In this document: positions 4,800-63,409 of the stretch, piece after piece | Layout of the letters: every line of letters starts with the position of its first letter | Numbering within the stretch: position 1 is the first letter of the stretch | DNA from: Asterochloris sp. CNOR1 | Lineage: Eukaryota > Chlorophyta > Trebouxiophyceae > Trebouxiales > Trebouxiaceae | Direction of reading: 5' to 3' | Assembly: GCA_963969365.1 (NCBI GenBank) | Contig: OZ017763.1 | Coordinates: 1,488,001 to 1,552,000, forward strand | Length of the DNA: 64,000 bases | Notes under the pieces: model-generated | The model's input: only the letters and a program-made list of their open reading frames with translations | Told to the model about the DNA's origin: nothing | The model's database searches: none | Translations under genes and position numbers: made by a program

Positions 4800-6996
4800 T
4801 CAAAACGATGAAACGCCAGCGATGGGACCTCTTATTCGCCGGGCTAGCTGCAAGTCCTTGGGCACTGCAGCAACACCCGAAACGCTGTTCAATGCTTGGG
4901 CAGGAGCTGATTGCTGATGTGCGCTTCATGAAGCACATCTTTAGAGCTGATCAGAGCGTCAATTCCGTAGAGGAGCTCAGAGCAGGAAAACACTCACTGA
5001 TGGTGACCCGCTTGGCATGGATGGCACAGAGGTTGCAGTCCTCCATCAAGTGGACCATGAAGTCTTCTGTTGCCTGCAGCAGGGTGGGCAAAGCACTGTG
5101 AAAGGGCTGCTGGTTGCATGCCAGCCGTCTGGGCCACAGGTAGGCAACAAACATCAGCTTTTGCAGCCATGCGCCCAGATACAGGGGCGCAGGTCAGCAC
5201 CTGCGCCCATGCGGAGCAGAACCTGCTGCATCAGGCGAGACTTCTTCCAGCTGCCCCTCATACTGGGATGTCTGTGTGAGGCAGAGGGACAGCCGAAACA
5301 CGCCAAGGGAACAGTGAGGGGTGCCGCACAGAGCTACAGCCTTCTTGCCAAAGCTGTGACTGCAGCACTTACCTCCTGCAGGGCGAGCAGTGCCTCCCCA
5401 GTCCACCTGAAGGGCTCTGGTGCAACCTCGTTGGTGATCTCACGAGCCTGCAGCAGGGGACAATACAAAGCTCAGCTACAGCCTGTCACATTGCACTGGA
5501 GGCACGCACTTCAGCAGGCCCTGCCGTGCAGCATTCTGAACAGAATTTGTTGCGTGCCGCCATTGTCAGAGACTGACAGTGTGCCGGCCGATTAGTCAGG
5601 CTGCCTGAAGGTCCCAGCCCGAGCAGGCTATCTGCTGCGTGCGGCCTTGATCCTGTGCTCGTGCCAGGCAGCAGACGGCAGCATAGCCATACCCTCTGTG
5701 CAGGATGTCGCCACGCTGCACCAGGAAACCCATCAAGAAGGTCAAGGGCAGCTTCGGGGGAGGGCAGCTCTGTGGTGCAACCAGGTGCGTCCAGGGAGGA
5801 AGACAGCAAGAAGTCTGTGCAACAAGTCTGTGCATTACACCCACCAGGAAGGCAGAGTGTGGCCTGCATAGACTGCTTGCTGCCTGAACTTCTGAGAGAC
5901 AGGCCGCCCGGCTCTCGACTTCCACAACATAACACAACAGTGAGTAAATCTGATGCAGCACTGGGCACCCTATTATGCTGCACTGATGTCCCCAAATGGC
6001 ATTGAACAGTGTGTGCACAACTCTGCTGGCTTTGCATTCCTCCAGGTGCACCAAGGGGGGGCATGCCCCTGCCTGAAGACTGCCAGTTGCTGTATGTCTC
6101 ACAGCACTGAGGCACCCACCAGGCGGGCAAAGGGCAGCTTCCTGATGAGCAGCTCTGTGGTGCGCTGGTACTGACGAATCTCCTTCAGCGCGCGCCTGCC
6201 GGGTTTGTAGCGGAACTTGCGTCCAGTTTTCTTGGTGCCCTCTGCACGCCAACACGCAGAAGTGGGTTGGCGTCAGCAAAACAACAGGAGGACTACCCAC
6301 AGGTCTTCTTGGCGCCCCCTGTAAGCAGTCTGCACAAGCATATTTGGGGCTGCATGTGCGAGTGTGCAGTCCAGCTGCCCCTGTGAATCATCACTGGTCT
6401 GGAGCAGAATACGAGGGCAGGGATTGTGCATGACTCTGCAGGCCAGCATAACTGGTGAGACAGCCAGAAGGATTCCTGCTTGACCCTAGACAGCCGACCT
6501 GGCAGGCTTGCTTCTGCTGCTGGACTCCAACATGATGGGTGCATCACAGCATGGCAGACAGCTGGATGTCAGACGAAGCAGTCGCCCCTTCTCTAGCTGC
6601 TTGTTGGCGAGTGTCTGACATGAAGCAGGGGGCTCGATGCCTTGTACAATAGCCACAGAGCTCTCAAACTGCTGGCATGGACAATGTATGGCTGACACTG
6701 CTGTTGAGAACTGATTGCAGCCTGAAAATGAGCTGCCGCTCACTAGGGGATGCTTTGCTCTGCCTGTTTGCTGGAGTTGCCCGTGCAGCCTTCTTGGGTT
6801 GCGCCTTTTTCCCTTTCTGGGGGCTGGTCTGCGCACGGCAAGCACACTGACCTGGAAATGGCTGCAAAGATGTCACACAGGCAAAGAAACGCATGCAGCT
6901 GGCATCAGCCATCATCATGATGCCAGCAGCATGTCAGAAGATTTCACGAGACAGTCAACAACATGTGCTCACCAATCGCCGCTTTACGCGGGCCAT
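4800..6996 (-). CDS. CENH3: Centromeric histone H3 (CenH3/CENP-A)
   Basis: Histone H3 variant that marks centromeric nucleosomes. Exons on the minus strand: 6996-6973 (start MARVKRRL), 6828-6744, 6241-6120, 5447-5373, 5073-4998, 4864-4800 (TGA). Phases chain exactly, giving 148 residues against 136 for canonical H3. The N-tail is Lys/Ala/Pro-rich and does not match the conserved H3 tail. The histone fold reads [14 protein letters not shown], then [12 protein letters not shown], then [11 protein letters not shown] and [13 protein letters not shown]. The Trp in RWTGEAL and one extra loop-1 residue relative to H3 are CenH3 hallmarks, as is the non-GERA C-terminus (GPIAGVSSF). The first exon is only 24 nt. 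Canonical H3 was considered and rejected because of loop 1, the tail and the C-terminus. Diverged pieces of the 6241-6120 exon are visible in both flanking introns (6299-6322 and 5735-5790). Confidence 0.93.
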
Positions 6997-7279
6997 TTGA
7001 GCACTCTAGGCTCGGCTGCCCTGGCGAGGGCGATGTGACATGGACCCAACCTGTCTGCCCAGATTTCTCTTAACCTTCTCGGTTAGTCAATTGAAACCGG
7101 CCATGCTCCGTTCAAGCATGCACAAGCTACAGTGGTAAGCCTTGCAAGTCCAGCGCGATGCCTCTCGAGTTCATGTATTCAGTCACAGTTGTTCATGACA
7201 CCAGGAAAAGTTGCCTCAGGACCAGCTGGCCAAGCAGGCCTACCGTCGGCGTGCAACAGCGCATCGATGCAACAAAGGC

Positions 7280-10153
7280 CTGGGGAAGCATACACCTTCT
7301 GCTGTGTGAAGTGGAGGGATGCCTGGAGTCTGCTCTGCGCCCCAGTGGAACTCCCCCACAACAGCTGTGCAGCTGCAGAGAGATGCCATCACTGCTCATA
7401 CAGCAGCTCTGCAGGCTTCGATGTTGGCGCGAGCACTGAACTGCAATATTACAGTGCAGTGAAGCTGAGGCCCTTTGTCGGGCAGTGCAGCTGACATCAG
7501 CATGCACAGACTGCCAGGTGGCTGTCCCAGCACATGACAGCCCAGCCATGCCCATGACAGCCGCAGGCAGGGTGTCAAGTCAGGCACTTACATGGGGCAG
7601 TGCAGATATGGACGAACCAGGGCATAGCAAGGTCCAGTGCCGACAGGCCGCCTGGCAAGACAGAGCCTTGCTCACGCAGCTGCTTTGGGCAGCAGCCACT
7701 TGTCAAGTCACGTGTACCATGCCACCTCAGCCACTCACTTGGGGCAGTGCAGCTGAGCCGAGCCGGGCCCAGACCCCTGAGTGCCTCCCATCCAGCGCTG
7801 CACTTTCACCAGGTAGCAGGGCCTCTGAGTGCTGGCATTATTGCTGCTGGTGATACTGTCCTCGTCCACAATCTTGTCTGCCAGCAGCCTGTTGCACTGC
7901 GTGCAGGACAGCCCAGCAGCCTGCAAGAGTGTAGGGAATGTCTGCCATGGGCCTGCTACATGGTTACAGCACAGCCTGGCGACCTGCATCAGGAAGTCCT
8001 GGTCCACCAGATGGCCCACCGGAGCACCGCGCAGGAGCGTGCTGTTTCAGATGCTGCACAGCAGCATGCGGAGTGCAGGCTCTATCTGCTCAACGCGATG
8101 CAGGCAGCAAAGCCAAGCTGCCTGCAACTGCGAGAGCGCGTCGCTCACATGCCAGTCAACATGCCAGCCTGCCAGACAACGATGCATTCAGCCACAAATG
8201 CCCATTGCACTTGTCACATTGTGGCTTGCAGTGCGACGCCTTTGAGGGTGGGAGCAGCTCATGAGACTCTGAGTCGGCCCTGCAGCCCTCTCAAACAGGA
8301 AGCAAGTGACCTGAGGGTTCCTGCTCAGCTCTCGCGCGTTCAATGCCAGGGTGCGGCGGTTCTGCTCCCCAATCATGACCAGGTAGTCAGGATTGCCTGG
8401 GTCAAATTTGTATTGCATGGCATCGAACAACTCCAGCTGCAGTGGAGGGCATGAGGCATTACAGGGTGTGGCGCAGACTTCTGTGACGAGGCTGGCCTGC
8501 CCAAATGGGCATGTAGCAGACTGCCTTGGATGGAAGCTTGAGCACCTTGTGCATAGTCGTCAGTCAGCAGAGCTGCTGCTGATGTTTGGCAGGCCCGGAC
8601 GTGCACCACCGACGACCCTCAGTTGCTCCACCCTCAACCCAGCAGTCCAGCCCCTGCACTTGAGGCCCCTCATCTTGCTGCGCCACAAGTGTGGGAGCCC
8701 CCACCTGTCTGAGGAAGCCATCATTGGGGTGCACCCAGGGTGCTTTTTTCAGAAGGGAGAACAGTGCCGCCTCTGCTCCAAGCTGCTCACTGGACATGAG
8801 GTAAGCTGTCATCACCTGCACCTTGAGGCAATGGGTTTTGGATGCCAGGCCAGTGTGCCGGACCATATCAGAGGTCCCTGGACGCACAGGTAACCCTGGC
8901 ATGCTATGAGGGGGAGCCTGCAGGAAGCATGTGCAGCAATGCATGCAGGCCAGAGATATGAAGGCTATCATGAGAGAGGCAGCTATCGTGGTGCAGCTCC
9001 TCTGCCCAACAGACCGCGTGCATGGCAGCCAGATGTTGCTGCAGGTTGAGCCTCCTGCGCAGTGCAGCCTCTGCACTGTGGTGGACTGTGGCTGGCAGGC
9101 ATGCAGCCGGCCATAGCATGCAGCCCAACAGCCCACCGTGGCGCTGCGTGAGATGCCTGCTGCACAGTGCACCATGACTCGGCCCCCTCCCTGCAGCGCC
9201 TGAGCAATGAAGCGCACAGCCCTGGGCAGGTGGGGCAGCAGGTTGGCATGGCTCACATCATCTAGAGCAATGTGCAGGCGGCTGTAGCAGGGCTTCATCA
9301 CCTGCAGTCAGCAGGGCTTCACAGCATAAGACGTGCTGGGTAATTGTGATGTGGAGGCGGGTGTGGCAGGGCTAGCCAGCAGGAACTGTAGCAGCTGAAG
9401 GCCTTCAGCTGGGCGGTAGAAGGCTCAGCACGAGCATAGGCAGAGATTGAGACTCTGCAGAGTGTTAGCAGCACTAGACAGTGGCGCACCTGCAAGAGAA
9501 TGTGCAGTGAGGGCTGCATTATGGCCTGCTGAAAGGCTGGCTGGCCGGCATCTGCAGGCAAAATATCAGGTTGGCAACCTGTGATGCCTGCAGGGCAACA
9601 TGTTGTGCAATGCCAGACCCACCTCTTGCAGCTCAGGGCACTCTCCAACGGTGCCATCTGTCTGGGGCACCAGGTTGTGCAGGCTGGGCAGGATGGACTG
9701 CGGGCAGGAGTGGAGGAGAGGGCTTATCCCTTAAAGGGATCACAGGGGGCACATCTGCGCATCTGGGCCTGTGCTTCCGAGCGGCGTGTGCGTAGCATTG
9801 CAAGGGTGAGTGGGTAGAGCTTTTAGGGACAAATCAAGCATGCAAAAGTTTCAACATCACTGATGAATGAAGCCAGCACATCATAGATGCTGCATCAACC
9901 CTGGGGATGCCCCTGGCATGGCTCACCACCACATGGGTCACGCCGATCTGTTGCAGGCAGGGCACAGCATTGATGCCCCCAAGAAACAACCCTGTGTGCA
10001 GAGTACAGCCTGGTGAGGCCCATGGCAGATCTCTGACAGAAGGGGTACATTGAAGAAGTGCGTACCTGGCCTAATCTCTGTCTGGGGAGATGTCTTGGCA
10101 AATATGGCTGCAGTATCTCCATGCTGCATGAGCATCACCTGCAGGCGGTGCAT
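7280..10153 (-). CDS. DUSP12/YVH1-like dual-specificity protein phosphatase
   Basis: Cysteine phosphatase of the dual-specificity class. YVH1/DUSP12 proteins pair this domain with a C-terminal zinc-binding domain and act in 60S ribosome maturation. Exons (minus): 10153-10066, 9991-9927, 9697-9623, 9301-9137, 8815-8705, 8436-8311, 7920-7810; phases chain. LFLGGINAV opens the domain, HIALDD carries the general-acid Asp, and VHCAAGISRSAT is the HCxxGxxRS loop with catalytic Cys and Arg. HPNDGFLRQ closes the domain. The 7920-7810 exon has a CxxC pair (SCTQCNRLLAD) like the start of the YVH1 zinc domain. A further Cys exon near 7757-7727 (LHCPK) and a piece near 7350-7290 (EFHWGAEQ, compare FNWSG in YVH1) probably finish the protein, but I could not chain those splices; the 7280 end is approximate. 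The start Met is one of several candidates in the first exon. Confidence 0.82.
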
Positions 10154-10233: not shown

Positions 10234-11383
10234 ATGCGGCTCAACTACAACATTGCCCTCGTTGGGGACAACGTTGAGCTTCTGCCCTACAGACCAGAGC
10301 ACGTTCCTGTGAGGCTCTAGATCGACCAGTAGTTCTCTGATCAGAACAGGAAAATCAATCAATGCAGCACTGCAGGTGTACCATCAGTGGATGGAGGACC
10401 CTGAACTCAGAGAAGCCACAGCATCGGAGAGGCTTAGCCTGCAGGTCTGTTGCAACAGCAAAGCTCATGCTGAGCAGCCATGGGCCATGTTGGCTGATAT
10501 GTCCACCATCGCTTGTGCAGGAGGAATACGAGATGCAGACTGCATGGGCAGAGGACCCAGACAGTGAGCTTCTGGCCTTCCTGTTTCATGGTACTGACAG
10601 TCAACTCTGCCTGTCCCGTCTTGACAAGCCTGTCCTGCTGTGCCCAGCCAGAGCTCACCTTCATTGTGATTGACGTCCAAAGAGCTGCACAGGCGCCAGA
10701 CGGCACAGGAGCGCTGTGTGCAGGCAGGTGGCAGTGTCTGTTGGCAGTGCAGCTGATTGCACCCGCCCGCAGCGCCATGAGCCTGGTGCTAATTGTGCTG
10801 CAGGCATGTGTGGTGATGTCAACCTGTTTCTGAGCAACCCTGAAGAGAAGCACTCGGCAGAGATTGAGGTGTGAGAGGATTAGCAGATCCATGCGGTGCT
10901 CACTTTTCTGCCTATTGGGCGGTTATGTCCACTATCTGCTGCAGTGCTGTTGCAGATTATGGTTGCAGAGCATGCAAGTAGGAGGCGAGGACTTGCACAG
11001 GAGGCACTGACCTTGATGATGGCCTATGCCTATCACCATCTGGTGAGGTTGGGGAAGGCTCAAGTGCACAAACAGAGCCTCCTTCAAACGCCTCACTGAG
11101 TAACATCCAGTTTGCAGGGCATCACTATGTTTTTTGCAAAAGTTGGGGAGGCCAATGGTGCCAGCGTCAGGTTGTTTACCAAACTGGGGTTTACATTGGT
11201 GTCTTTCAGCCAGGTTTGCTCGCAGTGCCTGCCCTCATGGTGTCATACTGCTATGAGGCAGGGCAAAGGATGCTGTCCGTGCAGGTGTTTCAGGAATCTA
11301 CCCTGGAGCTCAGAATAGCTGGGCCAAGGGTGCAGCAAGTGCGGAGTCAGGCTGACGCCTTGAAAATGAGACTTGTAGACTGA
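10234..11383 (+). CDS. NAT9: N-acetyltransferase 9-like GNAT protein
   Basis: GNAT-fold acetyltransferase of the NAT9 family. Exons: 10234-10308, 10376-10444, 10521-10564, 10652 to about 10725-10750 (donor unresolved), 10804-10868, 10956-11042, 11118-11213, 11285-11383 (TGA). The start MRLNYNIALVG and VYHQWMEDPELREATASE match the NAT9 N-terminus. EEYEMQTAWAEDPD, LTFIVID, GDVNLFLSNPEE and EIEIMVAEHASRRRGLAQEA follow in family order; RRRGLA is the acetyl-CoA-binding R/QxxGxG/A segment. FAKVGEANGASVRLFTKLGF and VFQESTLEL complete the domain. The only weak spot is the 3' end of the fourth exon, where several donors fit. The gene converges on PGAP1 with 37 bp between stop codons, so the 3' ends probably overlap. 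Confidence 0.9.
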
Positions 11384-11420
11384 CGGTGGTCTCCAGGACC
11401 GTCTGATGGCAGCCTCACCC

Positions 11421-14400
11421 TCAGATGAGCAAGCTGCTGATGCAGCTGAGGGCTGCTGCAACCTCAAGCACTCTGTAAGGCTGGCCTAGCAGGGCCGCCG
11501 CTCCTGTGGCTAGTGCTGCCCCAAAATGAGCACCACTGAGAATCAATCTACGTGTCTGCTCACAAGATATTGGATTGAAAGCCATGGTCTTGACGTTGAG
11601 ACTCTGCAGCAAGCGACACCTCGATGTCAGCAGGCTCCATCTCAGCAGCACTCCCAGCATGCACTGCAGGCTCAATGCAGTTCACCTGAACTGCTGGCAA
11701 TGCTGCCATGGCCAGGGCCACTGTGCCGTCATGCCAGTGCCAGACAACTTTCAGCTTGCCAGCAGCCCGCAGCCAGCTAGCTGCTGCGAAGAGCGAGTAT
11801 ATCAGGCAACAACTATGCAGCAGGCATAGCTGCCAGGCAGCCTCCCAGCGGGTGCTGCCCTCAGCAGCTGCAGTGGGCGCATGGTGTCCTTTCTGTGCAG
11901 TGCTGGTCAGGGGGCTGCAGCTGGGAGCAGGCCATCCCACAGGCTGATCATGTGCACCCTGTACACCATGAGCATGCTGTACAGCATCGCTGGCACATGT
12001 CAGTGCTCCTGAATCCTCCACTGGCGCTGCCTCATTGCTGGCCCGCTGATTGCTGCAGGCTAAGGCCACAGCTTGACAGGCCGTGCTGCTCTGTGCAAGA
12101 TTGAGAAGGTGGAGTGCTTGGCCAAACAGCATTGCCAGCCAGGGAACAATTGGTGCAAGTGCTGCTGCACAGCTCAGCAGGCCCCAGGTCGTGCATCTGC
12201 AGTCAACGAGACAGGTATGGTCTGCACCCCAATATCGATGACATGCACTGTGATGTCCCATGCAGCACTGCTCAAGCAACATGAGCCCAAGGCTGATGCT
12301 GGCCTGGAGCTGCAACTCACTTCACAACTGCCTCAGATAGCACCCCACAGCGACTGCCAGGCCACTTGGCGGCTGTTGAGCGCCAGAGGATGTGCGCACG
12401 CCACAGCAGCAGGACTGTGGCAAGCAGAGCTGGCAGCCCAGCTGAGTTGATGTGAAACCTGTGCAGCACAGCGGCTGGCAGGTCAGGCTGCAGCCTGCAG
12501 CATGCGAAATGGCATTTCTGACGAAGGCTGCATTTGTTGGCCAGACGCAGGGTCAATTGAAGCAACAACGGCACTGCTGCCAGCCCAGCAGGGCACTTGA
12601 GTATGGGGTCTCAGACCACCCAGAGCAACTAGGCAGCAGAGGTCAGGTGTGGGCTCGGCAAACCCATGGCGTTCTGCACAGTGCCTATGATCAAGCAGCA
12701 GGAGGCACAGGAGTCAACACTACTCTGCCTCCAGCAGCCTCCCCTGATCTATGGTGCTAGCAGCCTTACGTGAGTGGGCCGAGCCCACCTGATCATCAAC
12801 GGGCAGCGGGGGTCAGACACCACGCCAATCCTGCTGCCATGCACTGCGGCATCCCATAGTGCCAGCCCTTCGCTGCCTGTACGAATTTGCTCCTGACGCT
12901 GCAGCTGCGCCTCCTTACCACCGACGTTGAAAGCAACAAGCTGAGCCTGGAAGCAGGGGCTCATGCTGCACGTGTTTTCGCTGACGGTGCAGGGCACATG
13001 GGCTTGCAGGCGCAAGGCTGCACTGCCCAGAAGCTGCCGATGCGGCAGGCGCAGTGCCAGGAGGGCTGCATGCTGCTCATGGACCATGTGGCCGCGCAGT
13101 AGAGCCCAGAGGGAGGGGCTTAGGACTCGAGCATCTGCCCCCACAGCCTGCAGAAGACACCAGGGGCAGCCTCAGGATGCAGTCACATCTGGGTGCAGCC
13201 TGACTGGCAGTGGCAGTCTCGTCACGCAGGCTGAGCCTTTGCAGCACCCGCACCTTCCAGGTCACAGGCACAGGGCTGCAATCAAGCTGCATTTATACAT
13301 CAGCGCCCGCTTCCATTCCAAGAGCCCCAAGCTAGCTGCAGGGGTGCCACACCTGGGCAGCCACTAAGCCAACTTCTGCATCAAGCGTGATTGACAGGTT
13401 CTGGTGCGCGTGGGGCGCCAGAGGCACATGAAGGATGTGTACAGCCTGCGCAAAGTAGTCCCTGCCGGCCATGATGCTCTCACTTTGCCTGCAGCGTCAG
13501 GTGTGGCACCCTGGCCAGGCATTGCCGGACAGGTGCAAGCATGGGCTTGCGCAGGCGCACCTATGCCTGGTGCATGGCACACCCAGCAGTCTCTCAATCA
13601 ACCCTCAAAGGCCATGGATTGCCAGCCTAGGTGGCGAGGTACAGATCAGTGTGGCCTTGCATAGTGTACAGATGACTGCCGTGTGGCACAAAATCATGAC
13701 CTTGAAGTCCCTCTCAGGCCCAGCCTGCATGAGGCCCCCAGGTGCAGCCCATGGCGGGCTTGGCTGCTGCTTGCCCGGCCTGTCCCTCAGAAACACCCAC
13801 AGGCTTCACCTGTTGTCATGAATGACATGCTGCTCATTGAGTGATACTGCTGGAAGGGCCGATGTCGTGGCCAGCAAGTCTTGTGCGCCCTGGCTGCTCT
13901 CCAGTGTCACTTTGAGATTGTAAGGCTGCACAGCAGCCTGAACAACCAGCGTGACGCCTGAGTACCCCTGCTGGCGCAGCTGCTGGAGACTCCACATCTG
14001 CCGAGACGGCATCCTGCACGGGGCAGCTGTCTGGGCTCGTCAAATATGCAGACAGCAAAGGCAGCGCTTCTGTTAGGTACCTCTGAGCCCACAATCTGAA
14101 CAAACCTGGACGGCGCCTGAGACCTCGCATGCTCGAACAGCATCTGCACAGGGGTCTGTGCTCCATCTGAGGCTGCTACTATGTCTGCATGCCAGCCTGC
14201 TGCAGCTGCTACCCCAGACTGTACTGCTTGCTGCATGAGCGCTGTCACCCCTTCCCGCCCAAGATCTGGCTGAGCAATGTCAATGAGCAGGCCTGCCAGG
14301 CGCACCACCAGCTGATTGCACCAGACAATCTCCTGCACAAGGCAGGCGATCCCTGTGAGCAGGCACCCTATGAAAATGTTTGAGCAGGCTCACAGCCAAC

Positions 14401-15889: not shown

Positions 15890-16496
15890 ATGGATGCAGG
15901 GCCTCTTGAAGACGCAGTCGTCAGCCCTGGCAATCAGGCTGAAGGTACTCTGCACCAAGTTGTTGCCGTCCAAGACAGTGTGTAAGATTTGCTGTGATGC
16001 AGCACCTGCTGAACAATAAATTCTGCATGGTTCATTCTGCATGGTTCAAGGCATGCCTGCCTCCCCTGCAGCCTCAGACGCCTTGTGAAGAGCAAGACAG
16101 AGCTGCAGGACCATTCAGGGCACCTGCAGCAGGAACTGCTGCTGAGGCAGCAGGACCTGAAGCGCTGCACATCTGCATTGGCACAGATCCGCGAAGACCT
16201 GGACGCCATTCACTTCACATCCAGGTGAACATGGGCCTACTAGCATCAGTTCCACCATGAGACTGCACTGCCATAGGTGCTCATGGCCTGCTTGTTGTGG
16301 CCCGGCCCAGTGTCAGTGCAGCTCACACTCACAGTCATCTCCAAGCTGCACTTCAGCATTGCTGTCCTGGAGTCAGCTCATGAAGTCTGCGTGCAGGAAG
16401 CTCATCAAACACCTCAAGAAGCAGCACTCAGGCAACAGAGCCCCAGCGGCCCCCATGCTGCCTGGTGGTCACAGCGCCAGACACCTGGGCTGGTGA
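15890..16496 (+). CDS. Small KxDL-type coiled-coil protein
   Basis: Predicted 114-residue, mostly helical protein. Exons: 15890-15981, 16072-16224, 16397-16496 (TGA); phases chain exactly and every intron has GT...AG borders. The central exon is heptad-rich (LRRLVKSKTELQDHSGHLQQ onward) and reads ALAQIREDLDAIHF. This resembles the K-x-D-L segment and helix of KXD1, a BLOC-1/BORC subunit that helps position lysosome-related organelles. A basic helix (RKLIKHLKKQHSG) and a short Pro/Gly tail follow. The length is close to the roughly 100-180 residues usual for the family. The strict motif is REDL rather than KxDL, so the family assignment is tentative, while the gene model is well supported. The stop lies 144 bp upstream of the desaturase start on the same strand. 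Confidence 0.68.
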
Positions 16497-16640
16497 GCTG
16501 TCCGTGTGGCACTGCTCGCTGGGACCCATACCCATGCACTGGGACCCTTGCATTGAGCACTCATGCCGCTCCCCACCAATCTCAAGCTGAGACTCAAATT
16601 CCCCGCCACTGCAGATCAGTGTCTGGGACTATTGGGTGCA

Positions 16641-19600
16641 ATGACAAAAGCTCCTGTGAGCGCTGAGCTGCTGGAGCAGCAGGTCCAGGCAGGTCGCTTG
16701 TGGCTCATCATTGGAGGGCAAGTGTATGATGCCACAGCTTGGAGCGCTGTGCATCCGGGCGGAATGCTGCTGCTGCAGCACAGTGCCGGCCTGGACGTCA
16801 GCGCGGCCTTTGCAGGTAGGGCCCAGACATGGCTGCTGTCTGGCCTGGATAACCCCTTGGTTCTGTGTGCTGGCAAAGCTAGGCAAAGACCCTCAGACAG
16901 CCTCCTGCAGGTTGAGGGGATGTTGCTTGGTCACAACGCATGCTGCATGACTTGGCTCCTGGCTTGTGCAACCAGTGCCTAGACGTCAGAAGTAAGGCTG
17001 GAGTGCTCAATGAGCTGCCTGGGGAGAGTGGCGCCGTTGCTTGGAAGCTCCCTCTGCCTGGTGTGGCCTCCTGCAGGTATGGGGCCTGCTGGATGGGGAC
17101 GTATGACCTGCCCCTGTTAGGCTGGCACCGTACTACTTCGCAGATGGTGCCTGCCAAGCAATATGCCTCGGTACTCCTTTCAATGTCCTCAGTCGCTATG
17201 CCCTCCTGTCCTTAGCTTGGCCTTCCTGTGTCTTTTGGCCATGCTCTGAAGGTGGTTGCTGTCTCTGCCCTGCAGCCTACCATCCGCCTGCAGTGGGCGC
17301 CCGCCTTCCAGCATTCTGGGTGGGGCCAATGCACCCGGATGTGGCAGCCTCACCAGCAGGGGTCAGCAGGACAGCCAAGCTGGCAGCTGTGCACCAGCAG
17401 CTAGAGCAGGCAGGCCTCTTCCAGACCAGTCCCTGGGCGTACTGGGGCGTCGCTGCCCGATGCTGCTGCCTACTGGCAGCAGCCGTCCTGTGCCTGATAC
17501 AACAATGGCCGGTGCCTGCCGCTGTGCTGCTTGGCCTATTCTGGCAGCAGGTGAGTCTCAGCATGACAAACTGCAACCAGACCTGCCTGCGGGTTCAAGC
17601 TGACAGTGCTGCTGCCACAACAGACAGCCTTGAGGCTGATGCCTGCTGGTCCTCCAGGCTGGGCCATGCTGTCTGTGCTCATTGTTATTGCTGCCCCACA
17701 GGTCGCGTTTGTCGGGCATGACGCAGGGCACAACGCTGTTACCCACGACCGCTTCAAGGATGGCCTCATTGGCCTGCTGGTGAGCTGGGTTGGGTCTAAG
17801 ACACATTCTGGGGAGGATGCGCCACCCTCACAGCTGTTGGCATGCAATCACCCTGTGTGGATTCCACTGCCCCTGACAGGCATAGTCTGAGGCCTGCTGT
17901 GCAGTACTGCTTGCCACCAGCCTCATGCTTGACAACTGCAACAGCCACATGCTCAATGGTCATAATTGCCCAAAACCAGCAGCACCTCTGAAACCTCCTG
18001 TCCTCTACATCTGCAGGTGAATGCCTGCATTGGCATCGGGCCCTCCTGGTGGAAAGCCACGCACAATGTGCACCATACAGTGGTCAACAGCGTGGACTGC
18101 GACCCAGACATCCAGGTCAGGCTGGCCAAACAACCGGCTGCAGCGCTGCCTGCGCATCATTGGGTGCCTGCGGCTGCCCAACAGGCTTAAGGGGGTCTGA
18201 TGCCCTGGGCCTTCACCTGCTAGCTGCCCTGCGTCTTGTTCGGCACCCTTTGCTGATGAGGCTTCACAGCGTTGTGTGGCCGCCAATCGGTGTGACTTGG
18301 ACGCCGCATTCTGCACCAGCCCGTCCACCAATGTGCAGCAGACTGGCAGTGAAACATGGCCAACCCAGCTAGCTGCACCTGGTGGGCACCAACGGCAGTC
18401 ACGCACTCCCTCCTGCAGGCCATGCTCCTGCTGGCCGAACAGGAACCATTCATTCCCGTGCTGCTACCGCATGCAGCTGTATTCCCTGTCATGTCTGCCT
18501 ACAGCCTTGGTCCCCTGCCAAGCAATCTGATGCCTACCTCAAACTCATCTTCAAAGTGCTTGTCAAAACTCTGTCTCCATAGCCCTGCCTGAACTCTAGT
18601 GCGCTTGCGCTGCAGTTCATGCCGCTACTGGCCGTCTCCGATGCCTATTTCAAGTCTGTCTTCAGTCGCTATCACCTGAACACCCTCGTCTTTGACAAGG
18701 CAGCGGCCAAGCTCATCTCTGTGCAACATCTCACCTTCCTGCCGCTGCTCATGGTGGCCAAATTTGGTGAGCGGTTGCTGAAGCACATGTCAGACCCAGG
18801 ACTGCCTGTAAATCCCTGCATAGGCTGGCCCAATGTGACTGCTTCCGTCAGGTACTATCTGCTGCAAAACGGTGCCTGCCCCCCCTTCTTGGTGCTCTCA
18901 TCTGCTTTGTGTTGGCTGCTGCTGCTGAGTGCCTGGCTGGCCTGCCCATGCTTCCAGTATCTGGCTGCTGCGCCTCCCCTGCATGCTTGGTGCTTTATTC
19001 TGTTGCTGGCTGGCTAGGCAGGGCTTCAACAAGTGGTCTGTCATCAAGCCTGTTTTTGGGCTGTCAAAAGAGCAGGAATTCAGAGCAGGGCCAATGCTCC
19101 TGACCAGCCAGAGAGTGCTGTTGAAGATAGCAGTGGAGACTGCCGCCCTGCGCCCTGCAGGTCTGTATCTGCAGTCCGTGAAGCAGCTGGCCAGTGGCAT
19201 GTGTTACATCTGGCGGCCTGCAGAGTGCTGCTCCCAGGCGCTGTTCTTTGCCGGGTGAGGCTGGTGAACCTGTCTGTGCCTGCAGGCGTCATGCCTGCTT
19301 CAGCGCTTATTCGATCGAACACTCACCTGTAAATGCAGGACTGCACTCCTTGTCAGTCTCCTGAATGGCTGGGGCTCGAGATTGGCCTTCATTCTTCTGT
19401 CACATGCCACCTTTGGCATCCTCCATCTCCAGGTGAGTGTGTGGGGAAAGCCTCATCGGCTCTTGTGCCTGACGTTCGGGCTTCGACGTCCCTGATGCTC
19501 TAGATTTCTCCATTCTGAGTGACGGGAGCTCTGCTGCCTATATCACATTGCTACACTTGAGTCCATCCTGCTCTGCTGCCTCCAGGCATCCTGCACAGTT

Positions 19601-49500: not shown

Positions 49501-52500
49501 TTATAGCCTCCAGACTTGACTGCCACCTGTATGCAGGTTCAACACCGACAGTCTGGCAGCAACCAGCCAGAATGGCAGCGTGGGCTCCATGTGGTACCTG
49601 GGAAGCTTCTACGACAATGTGTTCACAGCGCGCCGCGGAGTCACAGCCCTGGCCTACCCCAAGCCCAAACTCAAGTTCAAAGCTGCCTCCACGGTGAGCT
49701 TCCTCTGAAAGCTGCACAGGCTGCAAGGGTGAGCTTCATGCCAACCACTTTGCTGGAGATTCTGCCACATGAGGTGACTCTTTTCAAGTGCTGCATGATA
49801 TGTCACCACCACCCTAAGGGGTCCTGCCACTTCCCTTAGGACACTAACACATGGCCAGCTTGATCATATGGAGTCCTGAAGGCCCACTTTCAATCCAGCA
49901 TTTGGGTTCTGCTGGCCATTGTTTGGCATCCCAGGCAAAGTGGCAGGACCCTTTGAGGTGGTGGTGGCATGTTCTGCAGCAGAACAATGGAGTACTTTTG
50001 TGGCAGAATCACCAGCAGAGTGGTTGGCATGTGACTTACCCTTGCAGCTTGTGCAGCCTTCCGAGGCTTTTGCCTGACTCAAGCCCCTCAGGTTGACCTA
50101 TACTGCCTGATCAATGTTCTACCATGGCCAAAGCCCACCTCCTTGGGATGCAGTCTGTTAGCGGGGCCACTGCAGGCTTCCTGTTTATGTGAGTGACCTG
50201 AAGGAAAGCATGCTGGCATGTCGTTATTTGGCCAGATGGCATGCTGCCAGCTCTCTCCCAGGCCCTCAGTGGGAGTGGCAAGCCGATGTAGTGTGCAGAC
50301 TTTCAGCAGCAGCCCCCTCTTGGTGAGTCAAAACTGCTTCCTGAGCTGTTTCAAGAGCTTCTGCTCGTGAAATGCTGCAGGTGTCAAAGCTTCGGTGGGG
50401 GCAGGCCTTCGGCGTCATTGTACACCTCATTTGCAGGCTTCTGGGAGTACTGTGAACGTGACTTGGCTTCCCTGCAGGTGTGGAACATCCAGTGGGGACA
50501 GGCCTTCCGCAAAACTGTGCACCTCAACAGCATGTACTATGAGCCAGGCGAGAAGAGCTACATCCGGGAGGCAGTCGCGTATCAAGCCGTCCAGTGAGCA
50601 ATGCATGTCACATGCCAGGCTGGGCAGCTGTGTGGCAGATGGCGAGCAACGTCAGGCTAGCACAGTAGTCGTTGAATGCATGTGGCATTTCAATGCAGTC
50701 TGCTGGCATGCAAGTGCCTGCAAGAACTGGATGCGGTAGACGGTGACACACAAATGGCTAGGTGAGTTTGCTGGCACCCAGCACAGCAAAAGGCAGTGCA
50801 TACCCTCCACTGTAACCGCATCTTGCAGTGCACAGGGGTGGCATGTAGATGGTGGGCATCATCCCCTGAAAGGCCTGATTCTTGTCTGGCTGCAGGCCTC
50901 TACAAGAGGTGCACTCTGCATGAACTTTGTTTCTACTGTAGTGCATCTCCTGAGTACATATTGGCAGTCCCTTTGCAATGTCCCTGCTGGTTGGCTCAAG
51001 GCCTAGCTGCTGCCTGGCCCTCTGCCAGAGACACTGCACAGGCATCACCTTGTCCAGAGCCCCATAACCCAAGCACACAGCCCACTCCATTGACATTCCC
51101 AATGAGTCGGACCGCCATGCTGGCAGCCTGCAGGGAGGGTGGCTACCCCTGTACCTGCTAAAGGCATTTCCCCCTATGGGGGGCGTAGCCCAGCACGCGT
51201 CCTGTCCAGCTCCTTGTTGCACCCACATGCTGTGCTGCCTCCCTGAACGCAGCCAGCACAAGGAAAACACCCTTTGTGCCTGCACTGAGTATGATGATTC
51301 TACACAGTTGAGCACAACGGCCTGTTGAGGCCCAAGCTGCAGGCTACAAGGCTGCCTGCCTTTTGGGAAGCTGCACACCTGTGGGCCACAGAAAGCTAGG
51401 CCTTACATGCTTTGCTGGCTGCCTTCAGGAAGTCTGGTGCCGCTTGGCCCGTTGTCAGACATCTGCAGTTGACAGATCAATGCATGTTTGGCTGGTTGCG
51501 CAGGACAGCTGGGCTCCCCGTGGCAGAAGAATGCTTGACTCCCCATGTTGCTGAGCGCAAGGTGCCTGCAGGAGGGGCCAGCGCCACCTGCTCCTGCACA
51601 GAGCGTTTTGCTGCAGCCGGGCCAGCTCGTGCGCATGGCCTGTGCACCAACCAAGGGCTGCACATGCAGAGGCACCATGCTGTGCTGCTCACATACTGTG
51701 CTGGCCGCCTGCAGGGAGGCTGCCGGTGCATGGGCAATTCAAATTTGCCAAATGGATGCACAAGCATGACATGAGCAATTTCTGCTGGCTGCTTTTAGGA
51801 TTGATATTTGCCCCCTGGCTGCACCTGCACAGAGCACTTCTTCTACGTGCACAGGGCCTGAGAACATGGCCACACATCGCACAAAACAGACCTCAACCCC
51901 GCTGCTGGCTGCCTGCAGAGAGGCTGGGCACACAGCATCTTGTGAGGGCCTCAGAGCAGCCTTCAGTATGTACGCCTCAAGTGCCATGCTGTGCTGACTG
52001 CCTGCAGAGAGGCTGGGGCCCCATGGGCCATTGACACCTTCATCTCAGTCAATATGAACAACAAATTCTACGGCATGTTCACGCTGGTGGAGAAGCAGGA
52101 CAATGAGTACCTGGCGGTGAGCGCATGTTGATTGACCAGGGCCTGCGCCCTTTATGGCAGGTGGTCGCCCATATGTGAGGCTGGTCATGGTGCGCTTGTG
52201 AATGCACCAACAAGTCAAGGCCCCAGAGGCTGGACCTCTCCTGCTGCTGGCATGGTGAGCTGCAGTGAGCGTGCATTAGCAAAGCATGGCATCAATCAGC
52301 TGCTGTTATGTGTGGGAGGTAAGGTGTTGCTGGACCTGCTTGAGCACTTGCTGGTCGCCTCTGGTCGCACATGTGTTGCTTCAGCTCAGGGTTGGCGGGC
52401 CAGACATGGCCTTACCAGAAGCTTGCCATTATGCTCTGCTCTGTGGTAGCTGACTGCTGTGCCAGGGCTTCTGCCAGACTTGCATGTTTGGCTTTGAATG

Positions 52501-55500
52501 CCTAGCCTGGCTTCAGGGCTGCTGCTCAGACAGGCAGCCGTGCTCATCTGCAGTCATGTTCACTCTCGTCTGCAGAGGAACAACCTGTCCACAGAGGGGG
52601 CCCTGTTCAAGCCTCACGATGTGACACAGAGCAACTTCCGCTGGGACCTGCCCGCAGGCCAAGTGCAGTACTTTTATGAGTGAGCCTAGCCTGAGTTGGT
52701 GCTGTAGTGTTTCACACAACAGGCTGCAATGCTGCTTCTTCCCACACCAACAGGCTGCAATGCTGCTGGTGAGTTACACTGACTAAGGCGGTCTCTTGTG
52801 CACCCACCTCACATCAAGTCTGCCAGGAACAGTTTACTTGCTTGCGATATCTGCAAGCCAGCTGAGGCTGGCAGCACACTGGGGATGTAGTGCCTTCACT
52901 GCAAGGGGACATGGCTGCTGCATGATTGTGCCCGCTGCTGAGACGTGCCTTGCTCTTGTGGGTGGACATCCACTTTGAGCACGTGCAGCAGAACAGCTCA
53001 CTTGAAACTTGCCTCCCTCTGCCCCAAGCTGACCCTGAGTCCCTCAGGCTACAGGCTTGCGAGCCACAAGCAGGCCCTCTGGTGCCTTCACTCAATGTGT
53101 AGACCCTGCAAACTGTTGCCCTGCAGCCTGGAGATTCCAAAGAAGTCCACACAGTACTTCCAGGACTTGTACAATCTCAACCAGGGCATTGCAGGAGCTA
53201 TTGCACCAGGCAGGGTCCCGTTTGTCTTTGACAATGTCAACCTCCCTGCGGTGAGAATTCTTGGTGTTGTGAAGTCAATCTGGGATCCCAGGTAGCTGTT
53301 GGTGCCAGCATGAGGCTGTAACGTACCTTGTTTTGCTGTGCGCCGCTGCTTTCAGTGTCATAAGGTGCATCTCTCCCGGCAGCCCTCCCATGCCATGACG
53401 CCATCAGACATGATGGTGCTCTGCCCTGCAAGAGCTGAGTGCCTTAATGTGCTCCCTGTGCAGAGGCGATGAACAGAACCATGACAATGGGCCTTTGTGC
53501 TTGTACAAAGGATGCATGGCTTGCAGAATGGCCTGCCTGCAGGTGGTCAACTATATGGCTGTCATGGCCCTGCTGCTGAATCAGGACCGGTGCACCAAGA
53601 ACTTCAACATCTACTGGGACCGCACTGGGACCAATGAATGGATGTTTGTGAGCCCCGGCTGTCTGCAGAGAAGCTGCCTTCACAGCCTGCTGCGGGGAAC
53701 TGGCAGAACTGGTTCTCTGGACGCAGAACACAGCAAAGCTTTGGGGCCTGGTTCACCCCAAGCCAACTTTACACACGCGTCCTGTTCCTGCTGCATGAAC
53801 AGCATGTATTGGCTGGCGTCGGCCTTCTCTTGCTCTGCCCAGCCAGCCGCTTCCTGGTGTCAGCAAGCAGGCTGCCCTTGCCTCTGAATCATGGGGCCTG
53901 ATCAGTTCCGGCGATCACCCCTCCCTGAGGCAAGAGAATGCTTGCTGGGCGTCAGCGGCAGGCTGGCGCGCTGCAGCACTGTCCACCTCACACCTTCTGT
54001 TATCTGCTCCTGCAGCTTGCTGAAGACCTCAAGAGCGCCCTGGGCGCGGACAGCGGGCTGGGCGGCGCGCCTGCCACAGACTACTGTGTGCTGGAGTGCG
54101 AGCAGTGGAACTCGCCGCTCTACTGTGACCACAACCACACGCAGGTAGCGCGCCAGGGAGGGTCTCTTGAGCAGCAGTACTTTGCATGAAGCCATTCTCT
54201 GCTGGCCTGAAGGACAGCCACAGAGACTAGGCAGGTCGCAGACTTTTGGGTAGTGACTCAGTGTGACTTATAGGTCTAGGCGATGCAGTGCCAGCAGTGC
54301 ACACTATGCTCTGCTGCGACCAGAAATGCTCCTAGGTTAGTGTGGGATTATCCCAAATACTGGGTGCCTCAGCAAGGAGGGTGGGATGCACCACTGTGAT
54401 CACCACCACAGGGGGTTCCAAGTGCAAGACTTCTGCAGCCAATTCTGAGCACCTGGGTGTGCTGCACTGATTGGCTCCTGCACATGCAAGGGCACCTACG
54501 CGAGTCTATGGACCATGCGCGAGATGTGGCAGCATGAGCCACAATGCTACTAATGGCTTGGAGCCATGCTGCTGGGCTAATGGCTTCATTACTGTGCACG
54601 CTTGGCTGCGTGCCTGCTGCACATATGCACACCTAGCCTATTGCCTGGTTGAGACATGCTGTTTTTGGTTAAGGCAAGTGCAAGGGCCATGCGGCTGCGG
54701 ATCCATGTGGTTCTGCGCTCCCGGCCCCTCACAGACCCTGCCCGATGCTGGCAGCCCTCATCACAACTCCTGATCATTGTCTTCACTGCAGGACAGCACA
54801 CCTACCTCCCCCTGGACCCTCCATACTGTCTCATGCAAAAGCTGTAAGTGTCAAACCCTTCACTTGACCCCTGCAGGAGATCACCACAACCTCCCCATGG
54901 ACCTTCATCACTGCCAACTTCAATGAACTCAATGGGCGGCGGCTGGCCCAGGCAGGCCACCGCGCCCTCAGGCAGTATGGCCCTGACCACACTGAGCCCT
55001 CAGAGGGGAATGTCAATGCAACTGACCCAGAGGGGCCCATAGACACTCCCAATGCTGACCTCACCAAGGACGGTGAGAGGTGCTGGCAAGCGCTGCACTC
55101 TAGGTCACGCCAGCTGCTGTGTGCATGTCAAGCAACAGCAAGAGCTGGCCGTCCGGTAGGCAGATGCAGTGCTCCAGCCACCAGGCAACTGCCAAGTACA
55201 CACAGCTTGCTTTGCTGCCAGCAGCTTAAAGCACAAGCATGCTCTTATCTGCTGCGCTGAAAGTAACCACTAGCGGCAGCGCAGCAGTTGCAGATGCAAG
55301 CATTGGCCTGAGCACCTCCACACACATGCGTTGTGCCTGCAGGCTCTATCAATGGTACTGCAGCCACCTTCAACTACCTGATTGACACCATACTGGCCAT
55401 CCCTGACACACGCGCAATGTACCTACGCCGCCTGCGCACCCTCATGGACCAGTTCACGGGAGGGCAGCTGGCCAGCGTGAGCCCTCTGACCTGTTGTTCA

Positions 55501-58973: not shown

Positions 58974-61900
58974 CTGAGCAAAGTGGGGCACAGAGCGCAG
59001 CGTAGTCTGGGAGCCCAGGATGACCAACTTTGCCTGCGCGCATAAGCAGCGATGAACAGGCCGATGCTTTGCCTTGCACACAGGAGTGCCTGTGCACGCC
59101 GCAGTGGCAGACCACCGATCAGGAAGCTTGTTTGCTTCAATGGCGCCTCTACCACCCAAGGCAATGTAGGAATGTCTGCGCTCTGCTGAAGAGCAGCCAG
59201 GTAGTTGGGAAGTTATAAGCAAACCTTAGGTCTGCTTGACTTGCAGATTGCTGTGCAAGCACAGCAAGCACAGCAAAAGGGCATGGTGTGCCTGTTGCCG
59301 AAGCGGTGTTGGCAGCAAGCTCGGCCCACACGACGCCTGCTCTGGAGCGCCGCCAGTATCAAAAGCAGTTCTCAAAGGCAGTGTCAGATTTGTTCTACAC
59401 ACTGCATCAACAGCATAGCAAACCACACCTTGGCCCTCGTGACTGCCACATTAAAGCGCCGCCAGTCCAGAAGCAGCCTGCCAGCGTTACAGGCTGAATT
59501 GCTGCGCACAAGAGACAGCAGAATTGCGTCCTTGTCCCGTCCCTGGTACTTATCAATTGTCAGCACCTCCAGAGTTGGCCACCGCTGCTTGGCCTGCTGC
59601 TGCATCAGGGCCACCTGCAAATACAAACAGGCTGGCAGGTGAAAGCACTCTGAAAGAGTCAGTGGCTCCACTGAATGGGCAGCACTACTTGCCCTGCTGA
59701 AACAGCAGGGCTGCCTGCAGGCTTGAACAGTCTTGAGTGGCGGACACTGGTCGAGGCAGCTGGCATGTGCCGGCGATGGGCTCACTTGCTGCAATAGGGC
59801 AGGCACACACAGGCTCTCAAGGGTTACGCACTCCCAATAACTCCTCCAACAAATGTGCATCTTGGCCTGTCGCTGCTGCAAGATTCAACTGCGTCACACA
59901 ATGATCACTTTATGACAACACCAATCACCTCGTGAGGTGGGTGGCTGGCTCATTCAGGCCACCTCTTCTTGCATCAGTTCCAAAAGGCCTTTCAACATTT
60001 GCTTGCGGCAACATGAGCAAGGCACTTGTCTGGCCAGTACCTGGCTTATCTGAAGACCCGCTTGCTGCTTGTGTCAGCCCCGCAGCAAGCAACAAATCCG
60101 CCACCCCGCCCTGCCTCACTGATTCTGCTCAGCCAAAGCAGAGCTGGGGCAGAGCCCCACTCATGGCTGAGACAGGTCTGCAGCGATCCTTGGGTCCACC
60201 ATTTGCCCTGCCAGCCCTGCCCTGATGCAGGCACACCACGACAGGCTCACCTGGGCCCTGTAGGGAGACAGGACGCCGATCTGCTGCTCCGACAGGCCTG
60301 CAGCAACCATCGCGTCCACCACCTGCCCCGCCAGCCCTGCTTCTGTGGGGTTGCTGATGGCGTCGCCCTGCTGCAGCTCGCGGCCTGCCACCCCCAGGCT
60401 GTCTGTGTCCAGGAACACCACCCGCTGCTCCGGCTGAAGCACCTGCATTGCACTGACGCTCCTATACAACCCCCGTCTGTCCCTTCCGCAGGTAGCTAGA
60501 GTCCTCCTGCTCCGGCTGCCCATGCCCAGCCAATGGGAAGCCGACATGAACATATATTGCTGCTGCAAGCTCGAGCACCCTGCAGCTTCTGCAATGGCAG
60601 CACTGTTGTGCTGTAGCCTCAAGCTGCTGATTGAGCATCCCGCTTGCCTGTTCACAATGATTCTGCATCCAGCACAACTCCCGTGTGGGAGCACGGTCTC
60701 TGGCCCGGCCACATGTTACAGGTCTGGGCACACTTTAGGAATGCCGGAGAGCAGCATTTGTACCATCCACCGGCTGAGCTAACGGAGGCTGGGTCTGGAG
60801 AGGACACAGCACATGTAGGGCAAGGCTGCCAGCTGCCACTGCATTGTCGCCACATGTGTGCCAACCTCAAACAGACCAGGATACAGGTTCTGCATGTCTT
60901 GATGTAGCCTTACCCGCTGGAGCCACTGCGGCAGGCCTCCAACGACGCCAGGCTGCAGGGCCAGGCTGCGGGCTGCCACTGCCTCGCTGCCGCAGGTGAG
61001 CTGGCCCCCATAAACAATGGTGTTGGCCAGCAACATGATGTCAGCTGCCATGCGATACTGCATGCTGAGCGCGACTACTGCCTGCATGGCACAAGCAAAC
61101 TGACGTGAATTTGACACAGCCGCAGGCTTGCTCCAACAGTATGGTGTCTGCGTCAACAGAGGCTTGTGGGGTGCAGGGTGAGCGGTGCACACAGACTGGT
61201 GCTCAGCGCTGCGCCTTTACACTGCAAGCGGCCTGTGGGGTGTGCAGGCTTGCCTGGGGAGGGTGGGGGGGAAGAGTTGGCTGGTGCCAAGGCCCCCTTC
61301 CTCGGCTCACCTGGGGGTGAGCATCGCACAAGTGCTTGAAGAGGCTGGTGCTCAGGCCCCCATCCTCTGCCTCCCGTGAGGCCACCAGCGGCGGCAGCTG
61401 GTTTGGGTCGCCCACCAGCACAAAGCACCTGCAGCGACATTGTGTCTGATGGAGCAGATGGCGCAAAGATAGATCCTGACTTGGTCACCACAGCCCCCCA
61501 CACTTCCACCATAAGGGCTGCCCTGTGAGGGTGCAGACAGAGCTGTACAGAAGTGGCATGGGCAGCCTTACAGGCCATCGGAAGCGGGCAGGTGCTGCGG
61601 CACACACGTGGAAGCAACTATGTTGGCAGGATCGCTTCCCTACTGATGCAGAAGTCATGCCCACCTGGCCATGATCAGCAGGTCCAGGCCTGTCCAACAG
61701 CACTCAAGGGAAGAGATGGTCCATCTCTCAGTGAGCAGCAAGCTTGGGCTTCCAGCAGAACCTAAGAGAGCCCACCTGGCCTTCAGCAGCGGGCCCAGGC
61801 TGGCTGGCAGGGTCATCTGGCCTGCCTCGTCCACGATGCAGCAGTCAAACTCCTGCCCCTTCAGCATGGGGTGGTTGGTTCCCAGACAGGTGCAGGCCAC

Positions 61901-63409
61901 CTGCATTCACATTGTTGCATACACAGCAGTCACAAATGTTCGCTTCCATTGCAGTTGGTCCCCGGGCTGGTGCAGCAGATGTTTGGAAGCACAAGTCCTG
62001 GCCCTGCAATTGGGGGTTGGCTGGTTCACAGGCTGGTGCAAGCCCCCCTGCATGCAGCACATCTGCAAACAACCTGGAGTTAGCACCAGTACTGGCCCTG
62101 GAGTTTAGGATGCAGCCGGGGCGGGAGCCACTCATGTCGAGGCTCTTTTTGTGAGCGGGTTTGACCTGACAAAATCGTCATGATGACGCAGGCCATGCAG
62201 CTGCTCTGACTAGGTGGCACATGACCCAGACGTTGCTGTGCCTATGCGATGCTTGACGTCATTGGCTGTGCAGCTGACATGCTGAACCAGCTGCAGATCA
62301 ACCAAATGCAGCTAGTTCGGCTATGTCATGCAGGAGGCTGTAAACCTGCTGAGTTAGCCAGTGAAGCAGCAGTAGGCAATTTTGGTTGCAGCTCAGGCAC
62401 ATCATTGACAGCTGGGCCCTCTCTGAGAAAACCTGGGTGTTAAAGTCAACAGTCAGCTGTGCAGCACTCCCAGACCTAAGGTACTGCCGCTGCCTTGTGC
62501 ATGATATGCAGCAGCTGACCCTGTGAATCACATCTGCCTCTTGACCATTCCGGAGTTTTCAGACTTAGCAGCATGACGATGACAGCAAACTCTGCCTACC
62601 TGCCATATTGTCATGCTGTTGCCTGCCTCCCCACAAACAGACAGTAAGAGTGCAGCCCAGGGCACGACCGAGCAGCACAGCGTACCACTGGTGTTGTTGC
62701 AGCTATCCTTTGCATGCCCGCCACGCTTTGGTCTGGGTGGTGCCTGGCCCCCATGACCCAGTCCCTCAGCTCTGGGTGCACACTGTCTGTGCGACCCAGG
62801 CGCACAAAGGGCACCCCTGCAGGCAGTGCAGAGAAAGCTACCCTGCCCTGCACCTCACACTAAAGTCTACCACAAGTGTCACCATGCCCTGTGACTTAGC
62901 AGCCTGCACGTGTTTCTGTCCACCTGCCATTCATCCCAGACTTCACAAGTGAGTGAGAGGCTCGAAGCATGAGAGTAGTTCACGTCTAGATGCGCCTTGC
63001 AAGACTGCTGGCCCACTAGCTGCTTTTGCTGTGCAGCTCAACCAGACTGGGTGCTCGCATACTGGCATCAGAGCCAGTTGAGGTGTTAGCAGGCAGTCAG
63101 CCTGGCATGGCAACGTCAGATACTGCTTTGTACAGGCGCACAATGGGTGCCCTTGCCCTCCCCAGGAACCCCGTCAGAGTCTGAACACTGCCACACCACC
63201 CCGACAGGGCATTCATCACTGTCTCAAGTCACCGCTCACCTGTGGCCTCCAGCTTGAGCAGAATGTTGTCCACAGCGCTGTTGGTGTAGGAGCTGATGAG
63301 CACGCGCCTGCCACGGGCGACCAGGGCACGCACGGCCTCCACAATCGTGCTGGTCTTCCCCGTGCCAGGCATGCCGATGATGAGGGCGTAGTCATGCGCG
63401 CGCAGCACG
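58974..63409 (-). CDS. DNA2: DNA2 nuclease/helicase, helicase domain (N-terminus beyond window)
   Basis: Superfamily 1 helicase of the DNA2 family, acting in Okazaki-fragment processing and double-strand-end resection. Exons (minus): 63409-63240, 62816-62725, 61900-61776, 61428-61311, 61081-60914, 60442-60251, 59614-59429, 59033-58974; phases chain. Motif I is [12 protein letters not shown] and motif Ia [53 protein letters not shown] (motif II), [12 protein letters not shown] (motif III), [10 protein letters not shown] (motif IV), [25 protein letters not shown] (motif V), [13 protein letters not shown] (motif VI) and [14 protein letters not shown] follow in DNA2 order. The nuclease domain and iron-sulfur cysteines should lie upstream, past the right edge or in unresolved sequence at 63410-64000. 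A short exon may be missed between 62725 and 61900. The C-terminal exon is not resolved. Confidence 0.93.
60175..60232 (-). repeat. Intronic decayed copy of a DNA2 exon segment
   Basis: The intron after the 60442-60251 exon contains a block that, read in the same direction and frame, gives [18 protein letters not shown]. The real exon reads [19 protein letters not shown]. The copy is therefore a partial tandem duplicate of the exon 3' half. Confidence 0.85.
61941..62055 (-). repeat. Two intronic decayed copies of the start of the VACTCLG exon of DNA2
   Basis: The real exon starts at 61900 (minus) with its acceptor and codes [15 protein letters not shown]. Two blocks upstream on the minus strand (61978-61941 and 62055-62006) align with it base by base over 30-45 bp with substitutions; the farther one also keeps a GCATGCAGG acceptor-like start. 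Confidence 0.7.

Follow-up and report, generated by a model that had tools for sequence, protein, structure and literature searches.

Internal gene duplications, as described by Gao and Lynch in PNAS in 2009, are reportedly short, may carry splice boundaries and can alter the intron content of a gene. In the accessible part of a report on the potato RdRp gene, a tandem duplication across an intron-exon boundary left the exon-derived part of the upstream copy inside an intron, with the splice signals inherited, and the report cites internal gene duplication as a common event (PMC4974935). A related idea, the AGGT model of intron gain (Rogers; Hellsten 2011), is presented in the available portion of its source as tandem genomic duplication that supplies intron sequence (PMC3443670). 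Here we describe a 64,000-nucleotide stretch of the genome of the green alga Asterochloris sp. CNOR1 (C18:1488001-1552000, hereafter the window) in which some introns contain decayed copies of the edges of their neighboring exons. The pattern is real and well supported, and its cause is mostly ordinary.

Decayed exon edges in introns

The genome comprises 56.4 Mb in 21 contigs, and the window has a guanine-cytosine content of 57.9%, which together with its intron signals and its genes suggests a green alga. Gene models were obtained by letting a gene finder train itself on the window together with 200 kb of contig C1 (72 genes, 614 exons and 542 introns), and the same gene finder was run without retraining on 40 kb of contig C10 and 40 kb of C18 beside the window. 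Every exon edge mentioned below is a gene-finder prediction. The introns of window genes carry the signals GTGAGC...CTGCAG, training yielded the donor CAG/GTGAGC and the acceptor CTGCAG/G, and a CTGCAG-rich composition is common to introns.

The presence of decayed copies of neighboring exon edges inside introns was confirmed. In the edge test we used the 360 of 542 introns that were suitable, excluded the splice signals, and took as the null for each probe 200 length-matched mosaics of the introns of other genes. At p<=0.005, the start of the next exon was found in 13 of 82 window introns and the end of the previous exon also in 13 of 82, compared with 1 and 2 of 82 for the far exon edges and 0 of 82 for the reverse complement of each of the four probe types. 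The corresponding numbers for C1 were 8 of 278 (starts) and 13 of 278 (ends), with 4 and 5 for the far edges and 2, 4, 2 and 1 for the reverse complements (chance expectation about 1.4). With splice signals removed, similarity of introns to their own exons is therefore far above that to other genes, which is the comparison on which the original prediction, made from the window sequence by eye, had staked its claim. The signal is confined to the first or last 50 nt of the exon and is lost by 80-110 nt: 45-nt probes placed at the exon edge matched their own intron in 31 of 342 cases for ends and 23 of 341 for starts, probes 80 nt into the exon in 0 of 208 and 3 of 217, and probes 110 nt into the exon in 0 of 140 and 0 of 149. 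Probes internal to introns also found matches (87 of 2978).

An annotation-free scan for direct repeats over 344 kb (offsets of 20-800 bp, score at least 95) gave 146 local pairs against a mean of 0.5 in the far-distance control. Local same-strand copies thus far exceed those found at a distance, as is characteristic of internal tandem gene duplication crossing splice boundaries. Of two low-complexity filters, the harsher first one, which penalizes long repeats, dropped 30 of the 146 pairs and kept 116 (63 exon-intron, 34 intron-intron, 13 exon-exon and 6 intergenic). Twelve of the dropped pairs pass a length-normalized filter, which retains 128 (68, 37, 16 and 7, respectively); it shifts the main figures little (C1 introns with a copy, for instance, go from 20 to 23) and is the one applied in later counts, on data and model alike. 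Near inverted repeats amounted to one separate pair and 47 self-overlapping hairpins, 6 of them large. A plain small-word blastn self-comparison detected almost nothing, and in a permissive alignment scan near pairs of low score were no commoner than far pairs. Stricter scoring was needed to separate the two, and low-score similarity seen by eye is therefore no evidence here.

The copies are local, lie almost exclusively on the same strand and for the most part touch the exon edge. In 65 of the 68 exon-intron pairs, copies of exon starts lie upstream of the exon and copies of exon ends lie downstream, in accordance with the placement rule of the original prediction, and 55 of the 68 copies reach to within 3 nt of the edge. 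Some well-preserved pairs are arranged head to tail across a junction, among them units of 113 bp (82% identity) and 79 bp (93%, exon and intron both repeated) in C1 and of 41 bp in the window. These observations agree with the local tandem duplication of junctions that had been proposed. Most pairs retain mainly the exon side. Gapped homology of the intron flank is detectable in 13 of 45 exon-only matches, and at p<=0.05 in 19 of 49 strict pairs (chance 2.5), the latter figure being biased upward as these pairs were picked on whole alignments.

The copies show no sign of coding constraint, translation or special mutation. Mismatches by codon position were 0.24/0.24/0.27 in 47 matches (two of them in an out-of-frame DNA2 model) and 0.20/0.18/0.26 in 57 of 63 pairs, after six pairs in four genes without a clean frame were dropped. 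The 47 matches contain 40 alignment gaps, six stops occur in 624 codons, and the substitutions (226 transitions and 217 transversions) have an ordinary transition excess. The even mismatch over codon positions, the gaps and the ordinary substitution spectrum point to neutral decay.

Among the 25 blocks that the original prediction had listed, 23 are supported in all. Twenty reach p<=0.01 against the exon edges of other genes (floor 1/401), and those at 40752-40842, 41686-42000 and 51123-51940, although short of that level, overlap strict pairs of the repeat scan. The CenH3 block at 6299-6322 is marginal (p 0.022), and the block at 46999-47296 fails as an exon copy (p 0.26) and is an intron-intron duplication instead. 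The description of the copies as serial fits a minority, 7 of 55 copied edges having at least two copies (4 of the 7 in the window; first filter). Their presence throughout the window was overstated, since a detectable copy occurs in only 26 of 127 window introns.

Elsewhere such copies were detected in 23 of 415 introns in C1, 7 of 74 in C10 and 0 of 32 in the neighboring 40 kb of C18, which together with the window makes 56 of 648. Intron growth by junction copying is not a rule in this genome. The window was picked by a reader who had noticed the pattern, and the other blocks (30 of 521) therefore give a fairer rate. Under the first filter, the window exceeds the C18 flank at p 0.002 and C10 at p 0.049. 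Among 82 genes with at least three exons, 25 carry a junction copy and 38 carry any local duplication; a uniform scatter is not rejected at the level of genes (p 0.20) and is rejected at the level of blocks. Introns with copies are longer (median 422 versus 221, first filter), a difference that either added sequence or easier detection would produce.

Origin of the copies

The copies are probably explained by ordinary short random tandem duplications in which selection preserved the exon half. Such duplications would arise at random positions within genes, with offsets mostly of about 60-400 bp, and a unit spanning an exon-intron junction would leave the gene with an additional splice site and a redundant fragment of exon. 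The protein would survive only where splicing held to the outer arrangement, from the upstream donor or to the downstream acceptor. The redundant fragment and its splice site would then come to lie inside the intron, in every case before the start of an exon or after the end of one, and would decay neutrally there by substitution and indel while the true exon would barely change. That selection acts through splicing in this way and that the copies then evolve neutrally are both inferences. Exon-intron pairs should remain recognizable for longer than intronic duplications, because their exon half is preserved, whereas both halves of an intronic duplication decay.

We modeled this process by simulating random duplications in these genes, letting introns and copies decay while the exon half stayed fixed, applying the same detection, and fitting the age spectrum to the observed identities; the fitted spectrum contains few young events. 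The data, under the corrected filter, comprise 25 intron-intron pairs, 39 of 65 pairs (60%) with ten or fewer intron columns, and a median length/offset of 0.31. Once indels were given a heavy-tailed distribution and the corrected filter was applied to data and model alike, a rate of 0.1 indels per substitution gave 39 intron-intron pairs, 40% with ten or fewer intron columns and a length/offset of 0.68. The respective values were 25, 40% and 0.54 at a rate of 0.15, then 15, 54% and 0.41 at 0.2, and 3, 83% and 0.30 at 0.3. As the model brackets the data, the pattern appears to be mostly an effect of survival, and on this modeling a junction-targeted process would be unnecessary to explain it.

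Several results weigh against random duplication as a complete account. A model with small indels only fails, predicting 43 intron-intron pairs (22 seen) and 15% with ten or fewer intron columns (36 of 60 seen), and the later model fails clearly at 0.05 indels per substitution (54 intron-intron pairs, 14% and a length/offset of 0.94). Although the data are bracketed, no one indel rate matches all three measures, and at the rate matching the intron-intron count, copies with the exon side only are in excess (60% versus 40%). The head-to-tail arrangement extends over the whole offset in only 7 of 68 exon-intron pairs, which decay could leave, and several pairs of high identity are short (22-33 nt) and non-adjacent. 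The 79-bp unit in C1 (112562-112650 and 112641-112729 of the fetched block) is simple sequence that fails both complexity filters and stands outside all counts. Homology on the intron side is weak in the exon-probe matches: at 11-20 nt out, ungapped identity amounts to 0.28 for starts and 0.33 for ends, and farther out it is about baseline. Finally, the window is about four-fold richer in copies than C1 (p 3e-6), a difference for which a uniform process gives no explanation. The modeling is also compatible with a modest preference for junctions, or with indels distributed otherwise than assumed.

Part of this evidence would suit a process that targets junctions, copying the exon edge together with its splice signal and so expanding introns, for example through CTGCAG/GTGAGC microhomology or a break linked to transcription or splicing. 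The low identity beyond the edge indicates that copies often stop at the splice signal, the share of pairs with ten or fewer intron columns is above that of the random model where its intron-intron count fits, and copies are enriched in the window. However, intron-internal probes find copies too, some pairs do carry the intron flank (the 19 of 49 from the upward-biased set and the 13 of 45), and a somewhat higher indel rate takes away most of the discrepancy. We therefore consider targeting unlikely, and we are equally doubtful of its regional form, in which parts of the genome including the window would have undergone junction-focused duplication up to the splice signal, repeatedly lengthening introns and leaving latent splice sites. 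The junction-specific rule of genome-wide intron growth put forward in the original prediction is not supported, given the intron-intron duplications, the bracketing by the random model and the low overall share of introns with a copy. The original prediction also spoke of latent splice sites. Scores above the 5th percentile of genuine sites were reached by 10 of the 21 acceptor copies and by 7 of the 26 donor copies, compared with 4% and 4.5% of random intron positions, and, judged by sequence, the copied sites may be latent splice sites. Neutral decay of once-real sites at a divergence of 0.25-0.45 predicts 17-36% for acceptors and 28-48% for donors; acceptor copies exceed this range and donor copies lie at its lower end, on small numbers and in a comparison that is not like for like, as observed sites were given a 3-nt shift and the prediction none. 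That selection maintains the copies as functional decoy or alternative splice sites is improbable: the site scores and the acceptor excess speak for it, but the donor figure is at or under the neutral one, and neither the codon-position pattern nor the stops and indels reveal coding constraint.

Decay of whole-exon tandem duplications, that is, of dead mutually exclusive exons, is very improbable as the general cause. The 16 exon-exon pairs, some with an exon and its flank both duplicated, show that such events occur, but far exon edges stay near background in the window and in C1, and probes at least 110 nt inside exons match nothing, so that this origin is mostly refuted for the bulk of the copies. 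It is harder still to credit dispersed intron elements, such as introners or other repeats, that would resemble exon edges by chance. Introns do have their CTGCAG-rich composition in common, but the far control stands at 0.5 against 146 near pairs, and a search of the 56-Mb genome, in which only the best candidates were scored and very common words skipped, matched the sequences at 46470-46830, 50375-50437 and 51406-51928 to nothing but their own locus; at these three loci dispersed elements are refuted. Copying from mRNA, in which the copy would run on into the neighboring exon, was not seen either, with 3 of 45 cases at p<=0.05. Error-prone copying or an old burst, considered in view of the few young copies and the absent intron flank, was dropped with longer indels modeled and the substitution spectrum found ordinary.

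Copies and neighboring features in the window

The gene models fuse CenH3 with the phosphatase gene and IC2 with the first CotH exons, and the truncated DNA2 model is out of frame. For six proteins submitted, Pfam confirms the phosphatase, the histone fold of CenH3, the cyt-b5 desaturase, the RRM gene, a PGAP1-like lipase and CotH; in the IC2 region only beta-propeller (WD40-type) models match, every one under its cut-off. DNA2 and the coiled-coil gene, left out of the Pfam submission, keep the names of the original prediction.

On the reverse strand, an exon-end copy in CenH3 (5728-5778) lies downstream, in the sense direction, of its source at 6114-6163 (p 0.0025), and one in the phosphatase gene (7573-7605, source 7720-7752) was found by both the block test and the repeat scan. 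The coiled-coil gene contains exon-end copies at 23390-23415 (source 23576-23601, identity 0.92) and 24770-24792 (source 24936-24958, identity 0.96). Exon-start copies on the same strand are located at 25559-25612 (source 25464-25518) and at 25901-25958 (source exon 25667-25858), the latter overlapping a 21-bp tandem array. DNA2, also on the reverse strand, has exon-end copies at 60166-60220 (source 60286-60340) and 61659-61689 (source 61770-61800) and an exon-start copy at 61993-62056 (source 61848-61909).

All remaining copies are on the forward strand. The first is an exon-start copy at 2192-2257, upstream of its source at 2309-2373 and within the intron (identity 0.71). The RRM gene has an exon-end copy at 32074-32119 (source 31945-31991), and its region has two serial copies within 33214-33404 (33214-33248 and 33342-33404) of the exon end at 33054-33116. 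Exon-end copies in IC2 were found at 35748-35800 (source 35414-35465), at 36827-36851 (source exon 36581-36694) and at 40737-40788 (source 40420-40471, identity 0.79); the last failed the block test against the nearest exon. An IC2 exon-start copy occupies 36065-36119 (source 36157-36211), two serial copies within 37983-38119 (37983-38012 and 38065-38119) derive from the exon start at 38229-38283, and 40198-40223 is a copy of the 5' part of an exon (source 40283-40308). Copies of IC2 exon segments at 41948-42006 have their sources at 41518-41569 and 41816-41856. Within 41518-42006, the called IC2 exon 41802-41868 resembles part of the exon 41411-41691 and may itself be an old copy, that is, a duplicated piece that became a called exon.

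Farther along, an exon-start copy with its splice site at 44592-44632 has its source at 44741-44782, and serial copies within 46293-46711 (46293-46386 and 46661-46711) repeat the start of exon 46792-46938. The intron with these serial copies also holds the sole separate near inverted pair of the 344 kb (46139-46186 and 46331-46378). A 41-bp head-to-tail tandem duplication crosses a donor site at 49275-49359 (49275-49319 and 49316-49359). CotH exon-start copies are present at 50375-50437 (source 50472-50526) and 54786-54838 (source 54871-54913), and three serial copies within 51406-51928 (51406-51457, 51692-51739 and 51903-51928) repeat the exon start at 51985-52036. Long introns of the CotH region also contain large fold-back stretches at 49702-50066, 45292-45582 and 46177-46317, which resemble hairpins or miniature inverted-repeat transposable elements.

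The C18 flank beside the window has several repeats of other kinds, given here in coordinates of the fetched 40 kb. Two very large palindromes, each about 0.9-1 kb long, lie at 12002-12979 and 15907-16800, and a 34-bp minisatellite at 11032-11175. A 213-bp direct repeat at 12882-13529 (offset 435, 100% identity, both copies called exonic) is the strongest direct repeat in the whole scan.

Comparison with known systems

Distinctive in this genome are the visible fossil record of such events and the richness of the window in copies. Each junction copy is a neutrally decaying piece of intron sequence paired with its preserved ancestor, the exon edge, so that the pairs provide a polarized record of intron substitutions and indels from one genome and with no outgroup. 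They also show that an intron can grow by taking in a failed junction duplication, and whether duplication is targeted to junctions becomes a question that can be settled by counting. The roughly four-fold excess of the window over C1 offers a lead on how the rate of duplication varies locally. Unlike the internal gene duplications reportedly described by Gao and Lynch, the copies here are mostly decayed and lengthen an existing intron, with no new intron formed.

Among the papers listed in the literature searches, which most subscription papers lay outside, none was described as dealing with serial junction copies. The type of event itself is already known as internal gene duplication, and a similar event, the potato case, is in print (PMC4974935). 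From the available portion of its source, we derive for the AGGT model that exon-start copies should lie at the 5' end of the intron and exon-end copies at the 3' end (PMC3443670). The observed placement differs, with exon-start copies mostly towards the 3' end of the intron and exon-end copies mostly in its 5' part. Introners, as characterized in the accessible part of PMC9860276, likewise add intron sequence across a genome, but they are dispersed copies of one element, whereas the copies described here are local, each resembling its own exon. The closest likeness is to the potato RdRp gene, where the duplicated unit also crosses a junction and the exonic piece ends in an intron; in the part of the report available, that is a single recent case read as a new intron, whereas here there are 68 mostly decayed pairs on three contigs (PMC4974935).

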